A program made the translations under genes and the position numbers. A DNA stretch of 64,000 bases, from assembly GCF_013414345.1 (NCBI RefSeq), contig NZ_CP058670.1:1426001-1490000 (forward strand). Direction: 5' to 3'. The notes below the pieces were generated by a model. It saw nothing but the letters and a program-made list of their open reading frames with translations. It searched no databases and was not told the origin of the DNA. This DNA comes from Microcella indica. Its GTDB lineage: Bacteria > Actinomycetota > Actinomycetes > Actinomycetales > Microbacteriaceae. Of this stretch, positions 9,442 through 11,182 are shown one piece after another (positions within the stretch are counted from its first letter, which is position 1; every line of letters begins with the position of its first letter).

Positions 9442-10535
9442 TACTGACTGACCCACTCGAGGTAGAAGAGCCCCACTCCGACGGCGACGAACAGCCCGCC
9501 GATGAGCCAGAAGCGCACGACGACGGTCACCTCGGCCCAGCCCTTCAGCTCGAAGTGATGGTGGAGGGGGCTCATGAGGAAGATGCGTTTGCCGCCCGTG
9601 AGCTTGAAGTAGACGCGCTGCACGATGACGGAGCCGGTGACGATGAGGAAGAGGCCGCCGATGAGGATGAGCAGCAGCTCGGTGCGCGTGAGGATCGCGA
9701 GGGCCGCGATGGCCCCGCCGAGGGCGAGCGAGCCCGTGTCGCCCATGAAGATGTGGGCTGGCGAGGTGTTCCACCACAGGAACCCGATGAGACTCGCGGC
9801 GATGGAGGCGGCCACGATCGCGAGGTCGAGCGAGTCGCGCACCTCGTAGCAGCGTGCGGCGACGGAGGGGTCGGGGCCGTTGAAGCACGACTGGTTGAAC
9901 TGCCAGAAGGCGATGAAGATGTACGCCGCGATCGAGAGGATCGAGGCTCCGGTCGCGAGCCCGTCGAGGCCGTCCGCGACGTTGACCGCGTTGGATGTGC
10001 TCACGACGATGAGGTTGACCCAGATCGCGAACAGGATCACCGCAGCGATGGACCCGAAGACGGCGAAGTCGAGCCACTCGATGTCGCGCACCGCCGAGAT
10101 CATCGTCGACGCGGGTGTCTGACCGTCGGCATTGGGGAAGGAGAGGGCGAGTACCGCGAAGATGCTCGCGACGACGACCTGCCCGGCGATCTTCGCCCAT
10201 CCCCCGAGACCGAGACTGCGCTGCTTGCGCGTCTTGGTGAAGTCGTCGAGGAAGCCGACGAGCCCGAGCCCGACCATGAGGAGCAGGACGAGAATCGCGC
10301 TGAGCGTCACTCTCTCGCCACTGAGCAGGTGCCCCACGAAGTAGCCCAGCACCGCGCCGAGGATCACGACGATGCCGCCCATGGTCGGGGTGCCGCGCTT
10401 CGTGTGATGGGACTGCGGGCCGTCGTCGCGGATGAACTGGCCCCACTCCAGCTTGTTGAACAAGCGGATGAACAGCGGCGTCATGAAGAGCGTGAACGCG
10501 AGCGAGAACGCTCCAGCGAGGAGCAGGGCGATCAT
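9441..10535 (-). CDS. mraY: Phospho-N-acetylmuramoyl-pentapeptide transferase MraY
   Basis: Integral membrane enzyme forming lipid I from UDP-MurNAc-pentapeptide and undecaprenyl phosphate. The product (364 residues) contains about ten helices and the family signatures [27 protein letters not shown] with the catalytic aspartates, [13 protein letters not shown], the [12 protein letters not shown]g-binding loop, and [16 protein letters not shown] was chosen because it overlaps the stop of the upstream murF-like gene (ATGA, 10532-10535) and starts the first hydrophobic helix directly. Confidence 0.97.
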
Positions 10536-11182
10536 GCGGTGCCGCCCGTGACACGGTCCACGAGGGATGCGAGCGGAGTTCGGGAGGCTCCCGTCACGAG
10601 CATCACATCCTCTTGTCTGACCCGAGTACGCAGCACATCGTATGCCTCGTCGGCGGAGTCGACGAGCATCGACTCTCCGTTCCACGAACCTTCCAGCCCC
10701 GCCGCATTGTGCACGTGACGGGCGCCGTGGCCGACGACGATGAGCTGACTGATGTCGAGGCGCACGATGATGCGGCCGAGCGCGTCATGGTCGTCGAACC
10801 ACTCTCGCTCAGTCGACTCCAGCTCTCCCATGACGGCGATCGAGCGCCCGGAGTCTCGGGTGAGCTCGGCGAGGACGGAGAGGGAGCGACGCACGTCGAG
10901 CGGGGTCGACGCGCCCGTGTCGTCGAGGAGCAGGGCGCCGCTCGACGTGATGCGTCGCTCGCACCGGCCGGGCACCTCGCTCTGCCGCGCGGCACGAGCA
11001 AGCGCTGTCGACCATGGCTCCCCCGCCTCCAGCTCGCCGCGAAGGCGCGCGAGAGCCGCCTCGACGGCGGCGTCCCCGATGGCGTCGATCGCGAGCTCTG
11101 CTCGCTCGTGCGCGCTCCTCACGTGGATGACCGCGCCCTCGCGACGGTGCAGCACGTCGTCGACGATGATGACCGTGTCCAC
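10532..11182 (-). CDS. Truncated MurF-like protein lacking substrate and ATPase domains
   Basis: The gene is in the murF position (murE to mraY) but encodes only 216 residues, where MurF is normally about 450-480. Residues about 105-216 match the MurF C-terminal domain closely ([51 protein letters not shown]). The first about 100 residues resemble only the tail end of the MurF central domain. The UDP-MurNAc-binding N-terminal domain and the P-loop GTNGKT domain are absent. Motifs expected in the C-terminal half are also changed: NDAYNANP reads DDTGASTP (87-94) and VKGSR reads VTGASR (196-201). The GTG start lies 3 bases after the murE stop. The frame is open with normal codon use, so it may be a retained non-catalytic protein or a young remnant; it cannot be an active MurF on its own. 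Confidence 0.82.

Follow-up and report, generated by a model that had tools for sequence, protein, structure and literature searches.

The window analysed here, that is the whole stretch of DNA, comprises 64,000 nucleotides of the Microcella indica genome (contig NZ_CP058670.1, positions 1,426,001 to 1,490,000; G000:C1:1426001-1490000 in our numbering), and the source genome (G000) is a single contig of 2.585 Mb. It contains a dcw cluster in which the place of murF, between murE and mraY, is occupied by a short open reading frame (ORF), hereafter called the remnant (Table 1). The remnant is the sole open frame between the two genes and is separated from murE by 3 bases. A Pfam search with E values up to 1 returned Mur_ligase_C alone (E 8.9e-10, 39.9 bits, cut-off 28.4), and the same search detected neither the N-terminal uridine diphosphate (UDP)-binding domain nor the P-loop central domain. 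Against the murF model TIGR01143 the remnant aligned with positions 223-415 of 418 and scored 55.7 bits, where the cut-off is 288.6. It has both the MurF homology of its C-domain and the dcw place between murE and mraY. A preliminary description of this DNA had reported a 216-residue C-terminal piece of MurF without ATPase and substrate domains, in an open and tightly packed frame, with altered sequences where the MurF motifs are expected, and the searches, the motif comparison and the gene layout bear out each of these points.

Table 1. Features of the murF slot (positions in the window) and the membrane MurF (position in the source genome)
Feature	Position	Strand	Remarks
MurF C-terminal-domain remnant	10532..11182	-	216 amino acids, GTG start, frame open, between murE and mraY
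murE	11186..12724	-	three Pfam domains
mraY	9441..10535	-	start overlaps remnant stop by ATGA; frame checked
Mur_ligase_C domain of remnant (residues 72-199)	10586..10969	-	Pfam
Degenerate tail of MurF central domain (remnant residues 1-71)	10970..11182	-	from alignment and substitution ratios
DDTGASTP replacing NDAYNANP in remnant	10901..10924	-	motif comparison
VTGASR replacing canonical lysine-serine motif in remnant	10580..10597	-	motif comparison
Retained block of remnant (residues 132-171)	10670..10789	-	25 of 40 positions invariant in 24 remnants
Membrane MurF	G000:C1:681047-682645		532 amino acids, Mur_ligase_M + Mur_ligase_C

The locus was compared in a sample of 60 related genomes, of which 26 belong to the genus (G000 included), 11 to other genera of the family and 23 to the order. 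A short ORF was found in the same slot in 25 of the 26 genus genomes; the 24 others are 45-94% identical to that of the window and contain no stops. The exception is G024, where the slot is probably missing from the assembly because mraY is unmatched there too. One locus (L027) is cut by a contig end, so that murE is not visible, and its row was dropped from the remnant alignment. In all 24 loci showing murE the three genes are consecutive and equally tight, with the first start candidate of the remnant lying -17 to +6 bases from the murE stop. In 23 of 25 loci the stop of the remnant and the start of mraY share 4 bases, and in the other 2 they share 7. The preliminary description had considered that a segment was lost by misassembly; this is contradicted by the agreement of 25 genus genomes.

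The columns of 24 genus remnants were compared with those of 24 canonical MurFs from the family and the order (4 of the 34 canonical genomes gave no locus, and 6 of 30 canonical loci were missed by the motif rule). The positions lost in the remnants belong mostly to catalytic motifs of MurF, namely the EHH...N stretch, NDAYNANP (of which the second D is retained), GEM.ELG and the C-terminal K-S-S. The Y-N motif occurs in none of the 24 remnants, and the lysine of the lysine-serine motif is present in 24/24 canonical relatives and in 0/24 remnants. Thirty columns are kept, one of them the start Met. Among those kept, often tightened to invariance, are H132, D133, G136, R137, V140-L142, G151, A154-H156 and A161, together with L163-W167, G169-S171, A180 and Y181, and they include a near-invariant block that reads HD.LGR..VRLD...EGSW.GES.

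All 24 aligned genus remnants are open, down to 41% identity to the first, and share 39 invariant columns. When the remnant ORF was subjected to simulated random point mutation to 50% identity, an in-frame stop appeared in 90% of 300 runs. The ratio of nonsynonymous to synonymous substitution rates (dN/dS, Nei-Gojobori) was determined for 12 pairs, which partly share genomes and are hence not independent. It was 0.02-0.40 for the C part (residues 72-216) in 12/12 pairs and 0.14-0.86 for the fast-evolving N part (residues 1-71); for the same pairs mraY gave 0.01-0.11 and murE 0.00-0.42. The G017 remnant is missing the central-domain tail. The low dN/dS of the C part indicates constraint on its protein sequence; the N part is the loose, degenerate tail of the central domain.

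The preliminary description had also proposed that a complete MurF might lie elsewhere and that the remnant might be a retained accessory or scaffold domain. The genome-wide search gave no canonical MurF over the TIGR01143 cut-off anywhere in the G000 genome. The best match (C1:681542-682489, 181 bits, model positions 56-368) lies in a gene for a MurF of another type, hereafter the membrane MurF, which stands in a cassette with its own Ddl. The proposal is upheld in that MurF function very probably comes from elsewhere in the genome, and fails in that the protein concerned is of the membrane type and not a canonical MurF. An accessory or scaffold role of the remnant would fit the sequence data.

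The membrane MurF of G000 has four hydrophobic segments in its first 161 residues, followed by Mur_ligase_M and Mur_ligase_C. Pfam detected no UDP-binding Mur_ligase N-domain in it, and its N-terminal domain had no Pfam match at E 0.1. Hydropathy of 81 membrane MurFs gave 1-5 hydrophobic segments, with 3 or 4 in 61 of them; L045 (an in-frame TGA in a 75% complete genome) and L063 (cut) had been dropped from the alignment. The TGA in the membrane MurF frame of L045 (G020:C108:8360-9925) is the only one there and is possibly a sequencing or assembly error. The residues K195, N220, N221, E243, H273, K287, N367, R398, D413, N416 and N418 are identical in 81/81 sequences and F219 is kept in 79, so the central-domain set of MurF (P-loop lysine, FNN, EMG, conserved His and later Lys) is present. 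K287 is presumably the counterpart of the carbamylated lysine of Mur ligases. The roles given to the conserved central residues are background on Mur ligases or follow PMC6085368. The N-terminal region contains a loop, W32-L-R-V-A-Q-R-E-H-Y41, with each position conserved in 85-99% of sequences, and W53, P97, T112 and R114 (99%), D154 (90%) and E164 (100%) are conserved as well. The C-end reads L.ENDLPDH in 77-78 of 81 and, by our reading, would occupy the place of the MurF lysine motif. Among NCBIfam models murF scored best (181 bits), followed by single-ligase models at 91 and 62 bits (also MurF) and murD at 50, and the nearest solved structures are those of MurF (e.g. 2am1, 4qdi/4qf5). In the tree the membrane MurFs form one clade (support 100) and canonical MurFs another (94).

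The two types of MurF are distributed in a complementary manner. TIGR01143 was matched over cut-off in 0/26 genus genomes and in 34/34 other relatives. Membrane MurF was found in 24 of the 26 genus genomes, the misses being G011 and G025, each 71% complete; in the 34 relatives outside the genus the best matches to it are canonical MurFs at 28-39% identity. In the wider sample of the order, 214 of 218 genomes have a MurF over cut-off, and G000, G109 and G153 are placed among the 4 without by their best E-values. Eighteen order genomes with several matches or a weak best match were treated as anomalous and searched with the membrane MurF profile, which detected the membrane type (>500 bits) only in G109 and G153, both without canonical MurF. 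For the remaining order genomes, absence of the membrane type follows from a single match of E 1e-42 or better, a criterion that could miss a fragment.

A sample of 60 genomes was also taken from Acidimicrobiia, the class of the carrier G091 (Candidatus Microthrix UBA814). Here 33 have a canonical MurF over cut-off, 25 have a membrane-type match (judged by 168-210 bits with the first model positions missing), none has both and 2 have neither at threshold. These two are G096 and G329, and G096 carries membrane MurF by other searches, its match being split. The membrane type is patchy in this class and the two types exclude each other; the idea that the cassette is the rule for the whole class was rejected on the count of 25/60. 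Because the split is about even and no genome has both, the swap or its reverse has probably been repeated within Acidimicrobiia.

In a scan of named genomes at E 1e-3, at least 557 stretches encoded a relative. Some of these may not belong to the membrane type; the 80 best were retained. Carriers among these 80 include Acidimicrobiia, Actinotalea, Pontimonas, Marisediminicola senii, Arsenicicoccus bolidensis, Nocardioides and others. A search for canonical MurF in forty carriers, three of them Microcella, gave nothing over cut-off in 37. A full MurF is present in Nocardioides luteus BAFB, N. sp. YR527 and N. albus, where it lies outside the dcw cluster. In N. luteus BAFB (G079) this canonical MurF lies near FemAB and VanZ and adjoins a Ddl-type ligase, an M15 dipeptidase and a dehydrogenase which, from its translation, we take to be VanH-like. 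This vanHAX-type neighbourhood with a complete canonical MurF covers L261:246-9034 (from C44:13000), and the other MurF of the genome is of the membrane type.

Membrane MurF is the middle gene of a three-gene cassette consisting of an alpha/beta hydrolase, membrane MurF and a divergent Ddl-type ATP-grasp ligase (157 bits, cut-off 245.65). In G000 the hydrolase stop overlaps the membrane MurF start codon by one base. Among the best 80 loci the hydrolase is directly upstream in 73 of the 75 with room to tell, and Ddl directly downstream in 65 of 71. The hydrolase (L001:257-1006, G000:C1:680298-681047) carries a GHSFGG motif, each position of which is found in at least 85% of 73 sequences. The order of genes in Microcella is plsC-gpsA-hydrolase-membrane MurF-Ddl, and the cassette stands between gpsA and DUF3515/thiL, where relatives keep the canonical ddl. 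In the relatives outside the genus, with 1.5-kb flanks, canonical ddl is adjoined by gpsA in 5 of 10 loci and by thiL in 9 of 10, and L253, L256, L257 and L258 show gpsA, ddl, DUF3515 and thiL all together. The labels murA, plsC, gpsA, DUF3515 and thiL at this locus were read from translations and not from family searches. Canonical Ddl over cut-off was found in 0/26 genus genomes as against 33/34 others, and the cassette Ddl in 23 of the 26. A second Ddl-like ligase of G000 (C1:2579318-2580223, 211 bits) lies near the contig end, and similar matches exist in many relatives. A vanHAX-type identity of the cassette was considered and rejected, since Pfam assigns its genes to Abhydrolase_6, Mur ligase and Ddl and no VanH or M15 gene is among them.

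The murF slot could be read in 36 of the 37 carriers outside Microcella (in G068 murE is not in the locus); a remnant was scored as absent on the basis of a search with a single query protein and of the space available in the slot. None of the 36 has a full MurF between murE and mraY. A separate remnant ORF is present in 12, a fusion to MurE in 5 and nothing in 19; the slots read in Acidimicrobiia, Nocardioides and Arsenicicoccus have no remnant. The fusion occurs in five Actinotalea-type genomes (four Actinotalea and one metagenome-assembled genome), in which the C-domain stands in frame at the end of MurE. In two Actinotalea the fusion was confirmed by Pfam, which showed one Mur_ligase_M and an additional Mur_ligase_C stretch in the MurE chain. 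In 11 of the 19 remnant-free slots murE overlaps mraY by 4 bases. The Marisediminicola senii genomes G063 and G064 have longer open frames (346 and 337 amino acids), which keep only the later central domain (Mur_ligase_M from position 112 or 117 on). The G063 piece has no Mur_ligase_C match at E 0.01 and the G065 piece is below the family cut-off, and both are counted by tblastn with the remnant.

Trees were used to follow the remnant state. On an MraY tree of 84 rows, from which L012 (short MraY) was left out, the state needs 5 changes, at least 4 of them forced by well-supported branches. On an MraY tree of Microbacteriaceae (33 rows with outgroups, 7 of them from the genus) it needs 3, of which 2 are forced, and a single origin in the family was rejected by the approximately unbiased (AU) test (p-AU 0.0067), made after the tree had been seen. 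According to these trees the gene was reduced to this one domain more than once. In the membrane MurF tree, in which 7 genus rows replaced 7 Microcella-like named loci and short-match loci were left out, Marisediminicola stands beside RYN_62 (support 99), and their MraYs lie apart. This difference between the two trees suggests that the cassette has moved between lineages.

We consider it likely that membrane MurF took over catalysis and that the old murF shrank to a selected, non-catalytic C-domain protein, an adaptor for a partner of the dcw pathway. The sequence comparisons show the replacement pattern, loss of catalytic residues, selection and reduction on more than one branch. The D-Ala-D-Ala ligation would have been taken over by the membrane-domain MurF encoded in the cassette, which would have come to occupy the canonical ddl place of the relatives, and this protein would be the working ligase and would sit in the membrane. 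Relieved of catalysis, the dcw murF would have lost its UDP-binding and ATPase domains and the catalytic residues of its C-domain, and purifying selection would have preserved the C-domain, with one conserved block, as a small protein of its own. The remnant may dock onto, or adapt for, a partner in the dcw-encoded pathway (MurE, MraY or a neighbour), as the old MurF would already have done. An adaptor role near MurE and MraY is favoured by the tight gene order, by the MurE fusion in Actinotalea-type genomes and by the retained block; absence from 19/36 slots means that this role can be given up.

Several observations weigh against this explanation. Membrane MurF is below the MurF family cut-off (181 against 288.6 bits), and its grouping with canonical MurF against MurC, MurD, MurE and FolC has a support of 65 only, so that its kinship with MurF is drawn mainly from profile scores. 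Its membrane location is deduced from hydropathy, and the partner and the activity are putative. All 26 genus genomes carry a second Ddl-like gene (202-216 bits). Outside the genus, the pieces of G063, G064, G078 and G098 retain the lysine motif. There is no remnant in the 19 slots mentioned, nor in G109 and G153, and the piece is therefore dispensable alongside membrane MurF, even within the order. The independence of the reductions is drawn from one gene, MraY, and the AU test was post hoc. The MurF absences among the 40 carriers and in the class sample are counted in genomes whose completeness is not stated.

A related possibility, which we hold only tentatively, is that D-Ala-D-Ala is joined at the membrane to the lipid-linked tripeptide (lipid I/II) and not to the soluble UDP-N-acetylmuramyl (UDP-MurNAc) tripeptide, the orphan C-domain surviving in some of the cassette carriers as a MurE-MraY adaptor. 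The membrane domain with its conserved WLRVAQREHY loop would then replace the UDP-binding domain. According to PMC9603463, murF mutants of S. aureus incorporate tripeptide into peptidoglycan, and later steps can therefore handle tripeptide, at least there. By this analogy a lipid-linked MurF step is possible in the cassette lineages, and if it is true, Microcella, a large part of Acidimicrobiia and several further groups of actinobacteria would make their peptidoglycan precursors in an order other than the classical one.

A role of the remnant as regulatory or structural subunit of membrane MurF, and not as a partner of MurE or MraY, is rather unlikely. Of the 25 genus genomes that have the remnant, 23 have membrane MurF as well and the remaining 2 are each 71% complete; the carriers outside the genus were chosen by membrane MurF and are uninformative on such co-occurrence. 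Membrane MurF however has a C-domain of its own, the two genes are apart in the genome, and 19 of the 36 readable carriers outside the genus do without the remnant. Still less probable is that the ORF is kept only for translational coupling of murE to mraY, its product being irrelevant. The short overlaps with mraY and the start candidates close to the murE stop would agree with this, but coupling alone selects no amino acids and the dN/dS of the C part is low, eleven remnant-free slots simply overlap murE with mraY, and the Actinotalea-type genomes carry the piece as an extension of MurE. We regard it as very improbable that the lineage makes no pentapeptide and that the membrane protein does another job, e.g. 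another Mur-type ligation. Its score below the MurF cut-off and its missing UDP-binding domain would allow this, yet canonical and membrane MurF are mutually exclusive in the 60 relatives as in the 60 Acidimicrobiia, a Ddl-type gene adjoins membrane MurF in most loci and the central catalytic set is kept. A decaying pseudogene left by the swap, which the preliminary description had named as a refutation, has an equally small chance, since the lost motifs, the empty slots and the fast first 71 residues (dN/dS up to 0.86) that speak for it are outweighed by 24 aligned ORFs without stops, 39 invariant columns, the constrained C part and retention of the same piece on more than one branch.

The explanation by takeover and adaptor can be set beside known systems. 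With MurF as represented by TIGR01143 and the structures named above, the remnant shares the C-domain sequence and the dcw place, and MurF is also the closest family to membrane MurF in profile scores and solved structures; the remnant differs in lacking the UDP-binding and ATPase domains and the catalytic residues, and membrane MurF in its score and in the hydrophobic domain that replaces the UDP-binding domain. MurT of MurT/GatD (6gs2, 7q8e) is likewise a Mur-type ligase without a uridine-binding N-domain and a weak profile match of membrane MurF (E about 8e-4), whereas membrane MurF has a hydrophobic N-terminal domain, a murF-model score and a Ddl neighbour rather than a glutaminase. Identity with MurT was rejected because Pfam found no MurT C-terminal family and the neighbours are hydrolase and Ddl, and MurT is retained as an analogy. 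The Actinotalea MurE chains, with one Mur_ligase_M, do not match MurE-MurF fusions, which are two full ligases. According to PMC12681378, PAP11 (8r5o and others) is a MurE homologue that is a subunit of plastid RNA polymerase and makes contacts partly via its C-terminal domain; as a Mur ligase homologue serving in another complex it resembles the putative role of the remnant, and it differs in being a long homologue in a different complex, the remnant being the MurF C-domain only. MglA is given in PMC8092295 as a second enzyme able to replace MurG, and this is a comparable case of a conserved actinobacterial peptidoglycan enzyme replaceable by a distant homologue; Microcella differs in that MurF appears to have been exchanged along with Ddl and that a remnant of the old murF persists under selection. 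Genes like murF beside vanHAX are on record in PMC8698665, and such clusters resemble the cassette in having ligase, MurF and hydrolase together, whereas the cassette is without VanH or M15 dipeptidase.

Both MurF and Ddl are commonly counted among the essential, soluble targets of antibacterials. Here they appear to be displaced together by a membrane-type module, in the whole genus and patchily in other actinobacteria. Several branches have cut the old MurF down to the same domain, a natural experiment that would separate the catalytic role of MurF from a second, non-catalytic one, and the missing UDP-binding domain makes the textbook assumption that the pentapeptide is completed before MraY testable. 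In the open-licence literature no paper was found on MurF with Microcella or with Acidimicrobiia, and the titles and abstract openings looked at mention neither a membrane MurF nor a remnant of MurF, which is not proof of novelty; a paper on dcw evolution (PMC8871954) names MurF once in its available text, as a cluster member.

Two minor observations concern neighbouring genes. At G034:C1:1518273-1521451, in a genome that is 86% complete with 5% contamination and has canonical MurF, a second MurF over cut-off (an open frame of 421 amino acids) lies about 1.3 kb from another Ddl-like match. When G007 and G023 are compared with G019 and G002 (L020, L026, L014, L022), murE gives a dN of 0.26-0.28 and mraY and membrane MurF a dN of 0.03-0.06, a pattern as if murE alone had been exchanged, perhaps with a change in the third peptide residue.

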